Part shown: positions 25,860-37,556 of the stretch, piece by piece
Layout: every line of letters starts with the position of its first letter
Numbering within the stretch: the first letter of the stretch is position 1
Virus record (IMG/VR): IMGVR_UViG_3300030108_003177
Coordinates: 1 to 57,862 of that record
Source: a virus
Strand: one strand, 5' to 3'
DNA length: 57,862 bases
Translations under genes and position numbers: made by a program
Notes under the pieces: model-generated
Databases searched by the model: none
Told to the model about the DNA's origin: nothing
The model's input: only the letters and a program-made list of their open reading frames with translations

Positions 25860-26066
25860 ATGGATACAAATAAATGGAAAAGCGTTCTTGTGCCAAAAGA
25901 TGTGTATGAAAAGATAAAAGTTATCGCAAAGACAGAAGGCCGTACCATTGGCGGCCAGCTGAGACACATCTTCTCACAGTATAAGTCAGAAGATCAGGCT
26001 AGAGTTGAAGAGATGGTTGACGCTCACATGAAGCGAAAAAGTCAGTCAGCTGTATCAGCCGAATGA
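25860..26066 (+). CDS. Ribbon-helix-helix transcriptional regulator
   Basis: 68 aa. WKSVLVPKDVYEKIKVIAKT (5-24) then GRTIGGQLRHIFSQYKS gives the beta-strand plus two-helix pattern of Arc/CopG-type DNA-binding dimers. The acidic then basic C-terminus may form a short helix. GAGG lies eight bases before the ATG. It is the first gene of the control region and the only evident transcription factor besides terS. The convergent gene on the other strand overlaps its last 25 bases. Confidence 0.7.
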   Translation: MDTNKWKSVLVPKDVYEKIKVIAKTEGRTIGGQLRHIFSQYKSEDQARVEEMVDAHMKRKSQSAVSAE

Positions 26067-26516: not shown

Positions 26517-26996
26517 ATGGACCCTGTAACGATTACCGCGGCTCTAAGTGTTGCAAAATCGGCCTTTACGGCGATCAAAAATGGATTCGCCGTCGGAAAA
26601 GATATAGAATCTATGGGAAAAGACCTATCACGCTGGATGGGAGCCCTAAGTGACGTCGATAATGCCGAAAAAACCACGAAGAACGCGTCAGCTCTACAAA
26701 AATTATTCAAGGGCAAAGAAATAGAAGCCTCGGCCATCGAAGCTTTTACAGCTAAAAAGAAACTGGAACAGCAAAGACAAGAGCTGAAGACCTTTATTAA
26801 TTTTCATTACGGAGCTAATTCTTGGAATGAAATACTTCATATGGAAGGACAGATACGAAAGCAAAGGCAAAAAGAAATCTATGAACGCCAAGAACTGATT
26901 AGAAAAATATGGGAATGGATTGGTATTGTTGTGCTGTGTGCCTCGATTATAGGATTTATTACGCTGTTAGCTTATCTTTATATAAATAAAAATTGA
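26517..26996 (+). CDS. Conserved phage protein with C-terminal membrane anchor
   Basis: 159 aa from MDPVTITAALSVAKSAF. A longer frame begins at 26379, but its first 46 codons do not look like the family and cover the promoter region, so I prefer 26517. The family pattern continues with FAVGKDIESMGKDLSRWMG, a helical middle with many Lys/Gln/Glu, HYGANSWNEILHMEGQIRKQ, and a single membrane helix at the C-terminus (IGIVVLCASIIGFITLLAYL). It is predicted to face the cytoplasm from the inner membrane. Function unknown, although the family is widespread in aquatic phages. Confidence 0.65.
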   Translation: MDPVTITAALSVAKSAFTAIKNGFAVGKDIESMGKDLSRWMGALSDVDNAEKTTKNASALQKLFKGKEIEASAIEAFTAKKKLEQQRQELKTFINFHYGANSWNEILHMEGQIRKQRQKEIYERQELIRKIWEWIGIVVLCASIIGFITLLAYLYINKN

Positions 26997-27021
26997 CACA
27001 TATGTGATCATATGCGATAAC
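26993..27021 (+). promoter_or_regulatory. Putative promoter with two CATATG sites in the spacer
   Basis: TTGACA (26993..26998), 17 bases, GATAAC (27016..27021, 4 of 6). The spacer holds CATATG at 26999 and again at 27009, ten bases apart, and TATGCGATAA at 27011..27020. Transcription from here would end at the terminator at 27157, giving an RNA of about 135 bases with no gene in it. Confidence 0.4.
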
Positions 27022-27110
27022 TGGTGTTGAAAAAGAAACAATAAAACTACCTTTTTCAATTATTCTTTATTAAAGACCTTAATTTAAAATAAGAATAATA
27101 ACTATATAAT

Positions 27111-27161
27111 GTGTGATAAAAACTAGCTGCATAGAACTCCTCCGTTTTATGCAGCTTTTTT
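27111..27161 (+). ncRNA. Candidate anti-Shine-Dalgarno hairpin RNA / terminator
   Basis: A 13-bp stem (AGCTGCATAGAAC at 27125..27137 with GTTTTATGCAGCT at 27144..27156, one G-U pair) closes a six-base loop TCCTCC, followed by six T. The loop is the anti-Shine-Dalgarno sequence. A perfect TATAAT at 27105..27110 would start a very short RNA of about 45 bases, and the promoter at 26993 a longer one. It may act only as the terminator of the unit ending at 26996. The loop sequence and the lack of any gene for 130 bases upstream suggest more. Promoter strength is uncertain because the -35 of the near promoter is weak. Confidence 0.4.
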
Positions 27162-27163
27162 AT

Positions 27164-27191
27164 TTGACATACTAAATTATATGTATAAGAT
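27164..27191 (+). promoter_or_regulatory. Putative promoter for the methyltransferase unit
   Basis: TTGACA (27164..27169), 16 bases, TAAGAT (27186..27191). It begins directly after the T-tract of the hairpin at 27125. The leader contains ATCGCATAA (27194..27202) and ACATTATAGGAG, the leader type shared with other early units. Confidence 0.5.
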
Positions 27192-27220
27192 ATATCGCAT
27201 AACACATTATAGGAGATGAT

Positions 27221-27373
27221 ATGGCAAATAAAATAGATCTGTTGTCGATGTTTCAAAAGAAACACTTACTTTTAATCTACCGATTAGAAGATCTAGTGCG
27301 TAAAAATAAAAAAATGATTTGTACAAAAGAAATAGAAAAACTGCTTAAAAAGGCAGAGAACGTAAATGACTAA
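27221..27373 (+). CDS. Small basic helical protein
   Basis: 50 aa, beginning MANKIDLLSMFQKKHLLLIY, Lys-rich and helical throughout. AGGAG lies five bases before the ATG, and the frame overlaps the methyltransferase start by eight bases (ATGACTAA), which supports real translation. No known family. It may be a leader protein for methyltransferase translation or a small regulator. Confidence 0.55.
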   Translation: MANKIDLLSMFQKKHLLLIYRLEDLVRKNKKMICTKEIEKLLKKAENVND

Positions 27374-28091: not shown

Positions 28092-28147
28092 AAACGCCTT
28101 TATATATAGACAGAAAAATAAAAAAAATAATTTTATTAAAAAATAGG

Positions 28148-28249
28148 TGTAACTAGTGTAACCATGTAACTTTTACTCTGTATCCCTTTATATATAAGGA
28201 TTATAGCAGTTACATATATGGTTACATCACTAATATACAAATATGTAAC
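28148..28249. repeat. Cluster of six TGTAAC / GTTACA hexamers upstream of terS
   Basis: TGTAAC at 28148, 28157, 28165 and 28244. The inverse, GTTACA, is at 28209 and 28221. They fill the otherwise empty 239-base gap between the methyltransferase and terS genes. Orientation (three direct, two inverse, one direct) suggests binding of an oligomeric protein. TerS (as a packaging site), a repressor or a replication initiator are candidates. Confidence 0.55.
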
Positions 28250-28295
28250 TATACTGTTAAATCAAGTTTGGCCTTATAAGAGCCTAAAAAGTTTT

Positions 28296-29240: not shown

Positions 29241-29281
29241 AAGTATGCGACAACTCTTATACACATTATATAGGAGATTGT

Positions 29282-29530
29282 ATGAAAGACTATACTTTTA
29301 AATTAGACGTTGATATTTGGCTTGATCGTAATTTTACAGCTAAAGCTAATTCTTTAGAAGAGGCTAAAGAAAAAGCTAAAGTTATGGCAAAAGAAATTTT
29401 TAAAGACGCCCCAAATGTTTACAATGGTAGAGAGGGAGGTAAATCATTAGAGCTGTTGGCAAACTATTTGTCAGACTGGAATTTTGGAGATTTACGTTTT
29501 GATGTTGTTAATGTCGAGGAGGAAGAGTAA
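29282..29530 (+). CDS. DpnD/PcfM-like small protein, paralogue 1
   Basis: 82 aa, acidic. YTFKLDVDIWLDRNFTAKAN, then SLEEAKEKAKVMAKE, follows the beta-beta-helix pattern of the DpnD/PcfM-like family (x-A-x-N/S-x-x-E-A). Leader ACACATTATATAGGAG, ATG six bases on. First of four members of this family between 29282 and 32499. Function unknown. Confidence 0.6.
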   Translation: MKDYTFKLDVDIWLDRNFTAKANSLEEAKEKAKVMAKEIFKDAPNVYNGREGGKSLELLANYLSDWNFGDLRFDVVNVEEEE

Positions 29531-32264: not shown

Positions 32265-32290
32265 AGGCCATGTTTGACATGGCCTTTTTT
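32265..32290 (+). terminator. Intrinsic terminator with TTGACA across loop and stem
   Basis: AGGCCATG (32265..32272) pairs with CATGGCCT (32278..32285), loop TTTGA, then six T. It closes the unit from 29282. TTGACA (32274..32279) begins in the loop. A matching -10 is weak here (GATAAA at 32295). Confidence 0.8.
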
Positions 32291-32337
32291 ATTTGATAAA
32301 TATATAAGATAAATCACATATTATAGGAGAAATATCT

Positions 32338-32499
32338 ATGGAAAAATACAAAGTTTTTATGTCAGGTTGGCTGAAAACTACTGTGTATGTTGAAGCTGAA
32401 AACGAAGATGAAGCTTTAGATAATGCACAAATGGAAATGTCTTTTGATAATTTAGAAGAGATAGAAGTTTTAGGAACTGTAAACGAGGAGGAGGAATAA
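32338..32499 (+). CDS. DpnD/PcfM-like small protein, paralogue 4
   Basis: 53 aa. MEKYKVFMSGWLKTTVYVEA then ENEDEALDNAQMEM: an almost textbook DpnD/PcfM-like sequence, with a Glu-rich end. The leader TCACATATTATAGGAG resembles those of 27221 and 29282, and a terminator precedes it, so it begins a new transcription unit. Function unknown. Confidence 0.65.
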   Translation: MEKYKVFMSGWLKTTVYVEAENEDEALDNAQMEMSFDNLEEIEVLGTVNEEEE

Positions 32500-33378: not shown

Positions 33379-33407
33379 TGTTTTAACTATCACACAAAGG
33401 AGAAAAT

Positions 33408-34568
33408 ATGAGACATTTAGAAAATGACAGTAGGACTTTAGAGAACCTATTACTTGATATCAAAAGTCATAATGATATGAAACAAGACTTTATTGCACCT
33501 ACAAACCAACTTCAGTTTAAAACCATAGAGAACGACAAAGGCGTTAAAACTAGTCAGATTATTATGGAAGCTGATAGAGGAGAGAAAACTCAAATCTTAA
33601 ATGCAAACCAAGTATGTTTAGATCAAATTGCAAATAAGATTGAAATCCAAGCACCAACATTTAGGCGGCTATTAAATGAAGTTCCAGAGGAAACTGACGC
33701 CGTTGTTAATGCTTTATTTGAAAAGAATCCAGTTAGGAGAATGATCAGAACTTATGATAATCCTCATGCATTATCTCCATTTAATTATGACCATCATACT
33801 GGAATTGCTAGAGCATTTGTTTCTGATAAATTTAAAACTTTTGATAATTCTGATTTATTAGAATCTGCATTGCCTACACTTGGGGAGTCTGGTGCTTCAT
33901 GGAAGATTGTTAACTATGCCAACAGCGATAAAAAACTTTATATTAGATTGAAAAGCGAAGTTATAACAGCTGACGCAGGTGTTAATGATATTATGGCACA
34001 TGGGATAGGTATTTCTAATAGTGAGGTAGGTTTTGGTAGTATTTCAGTTTTTGGTATATCTTGGACATTAGCTTGTTTAAATGGGATGCAAACTGAAAAT
34101 GTAACTAGGAAAGCACATATTACGAGTGCTAGAACTGGAGATCATTATAACATATTAACCGATGAAACTAAGGACGCCGATAACCACGCCCTGAAACTTC
34201 AACTAAGAGATATAATTTCTTCTTATGGTAGTAGAGAAACATTCGATGAAAATGTTGAGAAAATTAGATTAGCTAAAGAAGATAAAATTGCTGTAGGCAA
34301 AAATTATACTGAAGCGGTTGAGGACTTAGGCAAGGTTATGTCTTTATCTAAAAAAGAAACTTCAAGTGTTTTAGATGGTTTATTAAATACCATAGGACAA
34401 AGAGGTTATGAACAAGGACAGCCAATATCAAAGGCAACTTTAGTGAATGCTTGTACTAATGTTGGAAATACAGCTGAAGCCGATAACGTAGACTTTTGGC
34501 AAAAATTAGGTGGAAAAGTTTTAAATCTTAAATCTAATGACTGGAATAGAGTCGCTTTAGCTAGTTAG
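33408..34568 (+). CDS. DUF932-family phage/plasmid protein
   Basis: 386 aa. TGIARAFVSDKFKTFDNSDL (about 129-148) and the later GIGISNSEVGFGSISVFGIS fit the DUF932 family (phage/plasmid-like protein), found on many mobile elements. The N-terminal 90 residues are helical. The C-terminus is a helical extension with KLGGKVLNLKSNDW. Its biochemical role is not established, although it is often near recombination or defence genes. It begins a unit of its own with AAGGAG. Confidence 0.75.
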   Translation: MRHLENDSRTLENLLLDIKSHNDMKQDFIAPTNQLQFKTIENDKGVKTSQIIMEADRGEKTQILNANQVCLDQIANKIEIQAPTFRRLLNEVPEETDAVVNALFEKNPVRRMIRTYDNPHALSPFNYDHHTGIARAFVSDKFKTFDNSDLLESALPTLGESGASWKIVNYANSDKKLYIRLKSEVITADAGVNDIMAHGIGISNSEVGFGSISVFGISWTLACLNGMQTENVTRKAHITSARTGDHYNILTDETKDADNHALKLQLRDIISSYGSRETFDENVEKIRLAKEDKIAVGKNYTEAVEDLGKVMSLSKKETSSVLDGLLNTIGQRGYEQGQPISKATLVNACTNVGNTAEADNVDFWQKLGGKVLNLKSNDWNRVALAS

Positions 34569-34765: not shown

Positions 34766-34806
34766 AAACGGCGTAATTTGACTTTTACGCCGTTTTTTTT
34801 TATTAT
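34766..34806 (+). terminator. Terminator with embedded promoter
   Basis: AAACGGCGTAA (34766..34776) pairs with TTACGCCGTTT (34785..34795), loop TTTGACTT, then eight T. TTGACT in the loop (34778..34783) is followed by exactly 17 bases and TATTAT (34801..34806, 5 of 6), so the same DNA can be read as terminator and as promoter for the next unit. Confidence 0.7.
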
Positions 34807-34836
34807 CTTAACATCACAATTATATAGGAGATTAAA

Positions 34837-34992
34837 TTGAAAAAAATAAAATGGATTCTCTATTTAAGAGGACAAAAAGGTTGGACTGAAGAAGCTCAAT
34901 ATGACAACCAAGATGATGGAGAGTATTATCTTGAGGAATGGAAACAAGAGTTTCCAGAGTGTAAATTTAAATTAGTCAAAATGGAGGTATAA
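34837..34992 (+). CDS. Small protein with TTG start
   Basis: 51 aa from TTG: (M)KKIKWILYLRGQKGWTEEA. AGGAG is six bases upstream. The leader ATCACAATTATATAGGAG is shared with other early units, and the stop is directly followed by the next ATG, so translation is likely despite the rare start. Acidic middle (YDNQDDGEYYLEEWKQE). No family recognised. Confidence 0.5.
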   Translation: MKKIKWILYLRGQKGWTEEAQYDNQDDGEYYLEEWKQEFPECKFKLVKMEV

Positions 34993-35866: not shown

Positions 35867-35889
35867 ATTTAACTAACTTAACAGATCCA

Positions 35890-35929
35890 AACGCCAGTAT
35901 TTGACTCTACTGGCGTTTTTTTTTATATT
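35890..35929 (+). terminator. Terminator with embedded promoter
   Basis: AACGCCAGTA (35890..35899) pairs with TACTGGCGTT (35908..35917), loop TTTGACTC, then nine T. TTGACT in the loop (35901..35906), 17 bases, TATATT (35924..35929, 5 of 6): the same nested design as at 34766. Confidence 0.7.
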
Positions 35930-35959
35930 AATAGTTCACACATTTAAAAAGGTAAATTT

Positions 35960-36625
35960 ATGTTAAAAACTACAATATATAAAAAGAACATTTTTGAATT
36001 AGAAAATTATCAATTCAAAATATTAAAACCCAGTACAAATAAAAAGCTTGGAAAAAAAGTTTTAAAAGGTAAATACAAAGATTATAAATTTGTAACTTTA
36101 ACACTTGTAGAGCGTGAGACGTGCCCCAAAGATTGCGTCCATTGGTCAGATTGTTACGGCAATAATATGCCTTTTGCTCATCGAATGAGTGCAAAAGATG
36201 AAGAGCTATTGATGAAGAGAATCTACAATGATTTATTAAATAGTGTTAATCAATTTTTATTAATTCGCTTGCATATTTTAGGCGATTTTTTCAGCGTGAA
36301 ATATGTAAAATTTTGGCGTAAAATGTTAAACACTTTTAATAATATTGCTTTATATGGATATACAGCAAATAATATTAAATCGATTTATTCAGATTCCAGA
36401 GCAATTGCAAAAGAGATAATTAAATTAAATAAAAATGAAGATTGCCACATTAGATTCAGTAATGATTTACAAGCTTCTTTTTCTGCGAATTCATACGACA
36501 TTGTAAAACCTGTTAAAGGTGTTTCAATAGTATGCCCAGTTCAAGAAAATAAAACCGCTAATTGTGGAACTTGCGGACTATGTTGGAATCAAAAAGAACA
36601 ACAAATTATATTTAAAACGCATTAA
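35960..36625 (+). CDS. GP88-like Cys-rich protein
   Basis: 221 aa. Cys residues group at ERETCPKDCVHWSDCYGNN (about 52-70) and, near the C-terminus, at IVCPVQENKTANCGTCGLCW. A central LLIRLHILGDFFSVKYVKFW and YGYTANN resemble the gene product 88 family of mycobacteriophages and other mobile elements. The two Cys groups could hold metal or an Fe-S cluster. A nuclease or modification role has been suggested by such motifs but is unproven. It forms a unit of its own between two terminator/promoter cassettes. Confidence 0.6.
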   Translation: MLKTTIYKKNIFELENYQFKILKPSTNKKLGKKVLKGKYKDYKFVTLTLVERETCPKDCVHWSDCYGNNMPFAHRMSAKDEELLMKRIYNDLLNSVNQFLLIRLHILGDFFSVKYVKFWRKMLNTFNNIALYGYTANNIKSIYSDSRAIAKEIIKLNKNEDCHIRFSNDLQASFSANSYDIVKPVKGVSIVCPVQENKTANCGTCGLCWNQKEQQIIFKTH

Positions 36626-36654: not shown

Positions 36655-36695
36655 AAACGCTGTAATTTGACATTTACGGCGTTTTTTTTTATTCT
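36655..36695 (+). terminator. Terminator with embedded promoter
   Basis: AAACGCTGTAA (36655..36665) pairs with TTACGGCGTTT (36674..36684) with one G-U pair, loop TTTGACAT, then nine T. TTGACA in the loop (36667..36672), 17 bases, TATTCT (36690..36695, 4 of 6). Stem and loop are close copies of those at 34766. Confidence 0.65.
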
Positions 36696-36737
36696 TTTTT
36701 TATCACACAATTAATAATTATATAGGAGGTTTTTATT

Positions 36738-36920
36738 GTGAAAAATTCAAAATTTAAATATGAATTAAAAAAGCAATTTGATGATTTAATTTATGAAATT
36801 GTTAAAACTAGAACGCTTAATTATAGCGATGATATTAATCAGCTGGTCAAACAAATGACTCCAACAATTGAGAAAATTAATAATTTATTGGAGGATAAAA
36901 ACAATGAAATTATTAAATAG
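36738..36920 (+). CDS. Small helical protein with GTG start
   Basis: 60 aa from GTG, with TATAGGAGG eight bases upstream. Lys/Asn/Ile-rich helices (YELKKQFDDLIYEIVKTRTL). It overlaps the next gene by 17 bases. Unknown function. Confidence 0.45.
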   Translation: MKNSKFKYELKKQFDDLIYEIVKTRTLNYSDDINQLVKQMTPTIEKINNLLEDKNNEIIK

Positions 36921-37110
36921 TTTTAAATTTATTGATGCCTTTTATAAGTTTATTGATAACAAAATTAATCTAAATGAATTAGAAAATATTTATTATTCTT
37001 ATAAATTTAAATTAATTGGATTTAGATTCCATAAAGAAAAATCTAATGGAGCTAATCATATTTTAATTAAATCTTTGGACACTGACCAGACATTTAAATT
37101 AACAATTTAA
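36904..37110 (+). CDS. Small protein closing the early region
   Basis: 68 aa from MKLLNSFKFIDAFYKFIDNK. GGAGG (36890..36894) is nine bases upstream, so the earlier ATG at 36868 is less likely. Aromatic- and Lys-rich, then a short strand end (DTDQTFKLTI). Last gene before the noncoding block. Unknown function. Confidence 0.45.
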   Translation: MKLLNSFKFIDAFYKFIDNKINLNELENIYYSYKFKLIGFRFHKEKSNGANHILIKSLDTDQTFKLTI

Positions 37111-37130
37111 CAGCTGTTAGAAGCTGATAG

Positions 37131-37160
37131 AACGCCGTTAATTATTGACGGCGTTTTTTT
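37131..37160 (+). terminator. Intrinsic terminator ending the early region
   Basis: AACGCCGT (37131..37138) pairs with ACGGCGTT (37148..37155), nine-base loop, seven T. TTGACG (37145..37150) starts in the loop, but no good -10 follows. Confidence 0.8.
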
Positions 37161-37556
37161 ATGTTTTAAATAGTTAAACATCGTCCAGACGGACGCAAAC
37201 AGCTGTTTAAAACCTACGGCGTAATAATAACAGCTGTAGAACTTTGAACCGAGAACCGCGAATTAAAAACCTTGGAGAAATTAAAAAGCAATTTGGACAA
37301 CTTGCCGTGATCCACGAACCAAACGACCTGGAATTTTTAAAATTAAATCACTGATGTTATTAACTTTTTTTAGTGTTTAAGCTGCGGAAAAAGTTTAAAT
37401 TAAAACGGCATCAGGACGCCAAATAATGAGCCGTGAGCCGTGAAACTTTAGGCTAGAGACTCCGATAAATAAAGGTTAATTTATAAGGCTAGAGCAAAGA
37501 AAAATGGGCAAAAAATCACGGACGGCGTGCAATCGCCTGCGGGTGCTTGTGCCAAG

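Follow-up and report, generated by a model that had tools for sequence, protein, structure and literature searches.

The window considered here, the whole stretch of 57,862 nucleotides of the IMG/VR virus record IMGVR_UViG_3300030108_003177, carries a hairpin with an anti-Shine-Dalgarno sequence, UCCUCC, in its loop. The hairpin lies between a gene of unknown function (26517-26996, phrog_32327) and a small gene (27221-27373). What is this hairpin part of, and which bases of the locus would meet a messenger RNA? The sequence-only reading had taken it for a possible phage small RNA that may repress host or early phage mRNAs by means of the loop.

The DNA polymerase of this phage is nearest to those of phages DSL-LC04, 023Pt_psg01 and HTVC023P. 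The host is likely an alphaproteobacterium, because the upstream gene has relatives in Roseobacter phages and an 80% relative of the polymerase occurs in a Rhodobacteraceae metagenome bin. The record yielded no integrase. Genes are called early throughout on the basis of gene order and small size, which suggest that status. The elements of the locus are as follows.

26993..27021, + strand: predicted promoter P1, composed of TTGACA (26993-26998), a 17-nt spacer and GATAAC (27016-27021); based on sequence and conservation
27027..27059, + strand: 5' hairpin TTGAAAAAG...CTTTTTCAA with the conserved loop AAACAATAAAACTAC; based on the fold, the stem being invariant in 12 distinct sequences
27059..27099, + strand: second hairpin, variable in sequence, folding in every relative and with two compensated pairs
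about 27100..27118, + strand: putative antisense seed AACTATATAATGTGTGAT, containing TATAAT at 27105; invariant, unpaired in the predicted fold and antisense to leaders
27125..27161, + strand: terminator hairpin with UCCUCC loop and T-tract, the predicted 3' end of the small RNA; based on sequence, energy and a compensated stem
27164..27191, + strand: promoter of the next early unit, TTGACA-16-TAAGAT, right after the T-tract; based on sequence

The hairpin is exactly as it had been described from the letters. Its stem (27125-27137 with 27144-27156) comprises 13 pairs, of which five are G-C and one (27134-27147) is G-U, the TCCTCC hexaloop occupies 27138-27143, and the T-tract (27156-27161) contains six T, the first of which is paired. 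With a free energy of about -19 kcal/mol (z = -7.0 against shuffles) and a G+C-containing stem with a run of T immediately behind it, it has the make-up of an intrinsic (Rho-independent) terminator, and it is the sole strong terminator on the + strand between 23.0 and 29.5 kb. It is retained in every additional contig of the same lineage that covers the locus, and the stem changes seen in close relatives are compensated (A-U to G-C, A-U to G-U).

The loop is conserved over a much narrower range. Close relatives carry TCCTCC, ACCTCC, CTCCTTC or TCCTC, all of which preserve 5 nt or more of anti-Shine-Dalgarno sequence, and these variants include ACCTCCTT. In the more distant group defined below by the seed TCCCGTAGT, however, the terminator has its own stem and the loop drifts (gaaa, ttcg, ttcagg, tcacggc, and tcctcg once), so that the anti-Shine-Dalgarno loop is confined to the lineage of the window. 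The sequence-only reading had itself named a stem kept without its loop in related phages as the observation that would speak against it. The loop is anti-Shine-Dalgarno-like in the close relatives, but since the distant terminators keep a stem and vary the loop, the latter is not essential across the family. The TCCTCC hexamer is not enriched across the window (21 observed, 18 expected), and in about 1.8 Mb of control phage sequence the loops of 37 distinct strong terminators contained neither CCTCC nor CTCCT. GGAGG ribosome sites do cluster in the early block (12 of 28 genes, against 2 of 52 elsewhere; p = 3e-5), so an accessory contact by the loop is possible, although strong early ribosome sites can also be explained in other ways. 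Being kept in the closest relatives only, the UCCUCC loop would be an accessory contact at most. The further suggestion that the RNA titrates ribosomes is called for by nothing that was observed. A separate set of small-RNA terminators (L244-L263) shows a CTATC loop that is invariant despite stem changes at several pairs.

Upstream of the hairpin lie both boxes, TTGACA at 26993 and TATAAT at 27105, and no gene separates them from it. Variation among close relatives is very uneven over this interval. Only 3 of 60 columns (5%) vary in 26997-27055, compared to 48% of third codon positions in the neighboring gene; the value rises to 54% in 27056-27100 and falls to 0% in 27101-27117. Two blocks without a gene, P1 with the 5' hairpin and AACTATATAATGTGTGAT, are therefore strongly constrained. 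With transcription from P1 expected to start at about 27028, a small RNA of about 135 nt is predicted, consisting of the 5' hairpin, an unpaired seed and the UCCUCC terminator. Promoter and terminator of such a short noncoding transcript are both predicted and conserved, as judged from sequence. Other groups have a predicted promoter of their own at the same point, either TTGAC-17-TAGTNT or TTGCAA-16-TATAWT, and their RNAs would measure about 80-105 nt or about 70 nt.

The loop of the 5' hairpin, AAACAATAAAACTAC (27036-27050), is almost invariant and resembles a site for the distal face of Hfq (ARN). Around P1, another motif was noticed: TATGCGAT/ATCGCATA has all four of its window copies (25574, 25827, 27011, 27194) within 1.6 kb, adjoining a ribbon-helix-helix-like gene (25860-26066), P1 and the next early promoter. 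It also occurs in the early promoters of relatives and is a candidate operator. Two noncoding stretches further downstream are repetitive as well. The one at 28115-28260, before the terminase small subunit, contains GTGTAAC/GTTACA repeats, may be a packaging or replication site, and has a lead-in, AAAAAATAGGTGTAAC, that is also present in distant relatives; the one at 37108-37250, before the large terminase gene, holds several copies of the palindrome ACAGCTGT.

The TATAAT at 27105 had been read as a perfect promoter element. It is probably not a promoter: the block has no conserved -35 at 16-18 nt, merely a weak TTTAAA, it tolerates a 6-bp indel just upstream, and it is antisense to early leaders. 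Not one of its 17 columns varies among close relatives. In the predicted P1 RNA the block forms the unpaired linker that precedes the terminator, and the same holds in all close relatives that were folded. Its reverse complement is the leader ATCACACATTATATAGGAG, which seven early transcription units carry ahead of their first gene. Where the gene adjoining the RNA has no such leader (L003, L005, L008, L092, L123), the seed is unchanged, which fits an action in trans on other units. Two coding candidates at this place were rejected. The minus-strand peptide GGAGGAGTTCTATG (17 aa, hydrophobic) loses its start in L222 and L225 and has an altered frame in L005, and a plus-strand mini-ORF from the ATG at 27109 runs for just 5 codons in the window and is different in relatives.

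When the whole 58-kb window was searched with the reverse complement of the seed, the top four hits on the + strand and 8 of the 11 best were leaders of early genes. At a score of at least 8, leaders of 7 of the 27 early genes match, compared to none of the 55 other genes. By duplex energy, the seven target genes rank 1-5, 8 and 10 among 80. The matched genes start at 27221, 29282, 32338, 33408, 34837, 35960 and 36738, and most of the leaders lie directly behind an internal terminator or promoter-like site.

27199..27215, + strand: predicted target leader of gene 27221-27373, ATAACACATTATA then GGAG
29261..29277, + strand: predicted target leader of gene 29282-29530, ACACATTATATAG then GAG, with 13 contiguous pairs
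32313..32329, + strand: predicted target leader of gene 32338-32499, ATCACATATTATA then GGAG
33388..33401, + strand: predicted target leader of gene 33408-34568, TATCACACA
34811..34830, + strand: predicted target leader of gene 34837-34992, ATCACAATTATATAGGAG
35935..35944, + strand: predicted target leader of gene 35960-36625, TCACACATT
36697..36729, + strand: predicted target leader of gene 36738-36920, TTTTTATCACACAATTAATAATTATATAGGAGG, with the top score in the window and the lowest duplex energy of the 80 genes

The seed is AT-rich, and AT-rich segments match one another easily. Under a strict control within the window, a 9-mer in common with the antisense to at least six leaders occurs in 21 of 34,828 segments of 26 nt, the seed itself accounting for three of the 21, so that the window alone gives only about p = 6e-4. 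A fixed duplex-energy threshold of -9 separates the seed poorly from shuffled seeds (7 of 300 shuffles reach it), because bulged AT-rich duplexes are counted; the ungapped score discriminates the seed better.

Several of these early units share a further layout. The terminators at 32265-32285, 34766-34795, 35889-35918 and 36655-36684 have TTTGAC in their loops. In the last three, the -35 lies in the loop, the remainder of the hairpin together with the T-tract serves as spacer, and a -10-like element (TATTAT, TATATT or TATTCT) and a ribosome site follow, which makes them terminator-promoter-leader cassettes before small early genes. Gene 35960-36625, which opens one of the predicted target units, has a Pfam match, GP88, that passes the cut-off (1.8e-6).

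In relatives whose DNA polymerase is about 71-81% identical, an RNA built in the same way occupies this position, after the DNA polymerase and before the early operon, but its sequences are different. In one group the predicted RNA is about 70 nt long and consists of a 5' hairpin, the linker ATTCCCGTAGT with the seed TCCCGTAGT, and a terminator. The group's own early leaders carry ACTACGGGA and read ACTACGGGAG. The match spans 9 bases or more and is generally present in one to three leaders of a contig. This seed has a match in 11 of the 56 own-group leaders, compared to 0/27, 0/55 and 1/44 elsewhere. ACTACGGGAG was found in six phage records, where 18 of 18 copies have the same orientation within each record; a control pattern gave none. 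In another group a hairpin with a covarying stem displays the element as its loop, TACTCCTATT, and the leaders are AATAGGAGTA or ATAGGAGT; 4 of 44 own-group leaders are matched, by a match that is short and includes the universal AGGAG. Control segments taken 300-900 nt upstream matched at least one leader in 44 of 970 cases and at least two in 4 of 970.

Overall, the seeds match leaders of their own group and scarcely any of the other groups. Complementarity is retained between groups through change in both partners, seed and leader, and it joins RNA that is unpaired in the predicted folds to ribosome-binding regions of the phage. The stems covary as well. For A1, 22 cells are changed on both sides (4.8 when shuffled) in 7 pairs (2.8 when shuffled; 0/500), and for A3 the value is 14 cells (5.3). 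Covariation is well over the shuffled and slid controls in both groups, so the constraint acts on RNA. The bases flanking the TCCCGTA core in the TCCCGTAGT group show no significant covariation with the leaders (p = 0.06), and the claim consequently rests on the core and on the differences between groups. Anatomy, complementarity, group specificity and stem covariation are all properties of the sequences themselves. No clear case of the same arrangement was seen in the examined stretches of DSL-LC04, 023Pt_psg01 and HTVC023P. A possible fourth seed in L292 and L304, AGTTAGTTG against CAACTAAC, was set aside, there being too few leaders for judgement. The 5' hairpin of the ~70-nt RNA in L265-L356 keeps a CCCCAA loop in most members while its stem covaries; it is possibly a second contact site.

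With a probability of roughly 0.7, the locus encodes an antisense RNA of about 135 nt whose seed pairs with early leaders and represses the translation of the phage's own early genes. Its transcription, the pairing, and the direction and timing of repression are inferred, as would be a part played by the loop or by Hfq. Transcription of the RNA would begin at its own promoter (26993-27021) and stop at the UCCUCC hairpin. The seed (27100-27117) would then pair with the leader AUCACACAUUAUAUAG and the adjoining GAG before the first gene of each early unit. This pairing would cover the standby and Shine-Dalgarno region, leaving ribosomes unable to load, and the small early proteins would jointly be turned down after the RNA had built up. 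It is position that suggests the RNA would repress, and not activate. If a superinfecting phage carried this leader, its early genes would be silenced likewise. A second contact, of lower specificity, is possible between the UCCUCC loop and the GGAGGA ribosome sites that lie within the early operon. What had been proposed from the letters survives as a likely small-RNA locus directed at early ribosome sites of its own phage; the main targeting element is moved from the loop to the block 27100-27117.

The locus might instead be no more than an intrinsic terminator of the usual kind, acting as an insulator between the replication and early operons, with the loop and the promoter-like boxes incidental. 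Many relatives do have terminators of varied stem and loop at the same place, often followed by a TTGACA promoter. We nevertheless regard this as unlikely, as a plain terminator leaves the upstream promoter, the 5' hairpin, the invariant seed outside any gene and the group-specific complementarity to leaders unexplained. A small RNA whose functional element is the UCCUCC loop, pairing generally with host or phage Shine-Dalgarno sequences, appears rather improbable. The close-relative loop variants that all keep at least 5 nt of anti-Shine-Dalgarno sequence and the concentration of GGAGG sites in the early block speak for it. In the wider family, however, the terminator loop drifts while a leader-matched seed is retained, and the loop changes represent few events, since the close relatives are nearly one lineage.

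Pairing of RNA would not be needed at all if the block were an inverted copy, at the DNA level, of an operator or promoter element in the early leaders. A DNA-binding regulator might, for example, recognize the leader as well as the block. These leaders directly follow early promoters, and a separate candidate operator, TATGCGAT, lies in the region beside the ribbon-helix-helix gene. Yet in all cases found the copy runs opposite to the leaders, the match takes in Shine-Dalgarno bases, the element sits in loops or linkers of hairpins with covarying stems, and an interpretation of TATAAT as a -10 cannot be transferred to TCCCGTAGT, which makes this explanation very unlikely. The seed and the leader at 27199-27211 are also on the same strand, complementary and 100 nt apart. 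In a read-through transcript the seed could fold onto this leader and hide the ribosome site, so that late read-through would go untranslated. An action in cis limited to the adjacent gene is highly improbable, because relatives lacking the adjacent leader keep the seed; furthermore, the best matches are 2-10 kb away (29282, 36738) and a strong terminator ends the RNA.

The antisense RNA acting in trans would imply that, in phages that are frequent in marine metagenomes, a single RNA addresses a whole set of early units via one leader common to them. Most of the phage small RNAs that have been studied well stem from temperate phages, and each has one or few targets. The pairing partners differ in step between groups, and this yields a simple rule for finding such RNAs in metagenomes. 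Whether two related phages can coexist in a cell may likewise depend on seed-leader matching. A broader proposal, which we put forward tentatively, is that in a widespread group of marine phages one small RNA and one repeated leader control a modular early regulon that leader-bearing cassettes can join, and that joint change of seed and leader amounts to an RNA-based type of immunity, with no sign of lysogeny.

A search of Rfam returned no family at gathering score (CyaR, RF00112, reached 22.1 bits, E = 0.11, against a threshold of 47 bits), no nucleotide matches were found among named phage genomes, and searches of open-access literature turned up no account of a comparable system, which speaks weakly for novelty. 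Anti-Shine-Dalgarno loops are shared with the CcsR/cuckoo-type RNAs and with SmelA075 and SmelA099, alphaproteobacterial RNAs encoded by host genes that carry CCUCCUCCC in three or four hairpins (PMC3927594). Several hairpins with a CCUCCUCCC loop are not seen here. There is instead a single short UCCUCC loop, unconserved beyond close relatives, and no Rfam match to the cuckoo, CcsR or SmelA075 type.

Among phage-derived RNAs, DicF of the Qin prophage (53 nt, terminator-like) also represses translation, but its target is the host ftsZ, whereas phage genes are the predicted targets here (PMC12197685). PreS of lambda and VpdS of VP882 are likewise trans-acting phage small RNAs; they are about 50-90 nt long, depend on Hfq and, in contrast, are described as acting largely on host genes or host small RNAs (PMC12197685). 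The sar RNA of P22, a 68/69-nt antisense RNA that blocks translation initiation of ant, is similarly a small phage antisense RNA, with a single target and no repeated leader (PMC12197685). The c4 RNA of P1 and P7 acts on the antirepressor (ant) mRNA and sets the heteroimmunity between the two phages; in common with the RNA proposed here, it is phage-encoded, aimed at the ribosome-binding region of a phage mRNA, specific to the phage type and equipped with complementary segments that are probably exposed in loops (PMC12197685). It is not c4 RNA proper that is found here, as the predicted targets are the leaders of small early genes and no Rfam family is reached. Unlike c4, the RNA proposed here is predicted to possess a promoter and a terminator of its own, and up to seven targets with a repeated leader. 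In mode of action, c4 and sar would be its closest counterparts; new relative to both are the predicted promoter of its own, the many targets sharing one leader, and the seeds that change between groups.
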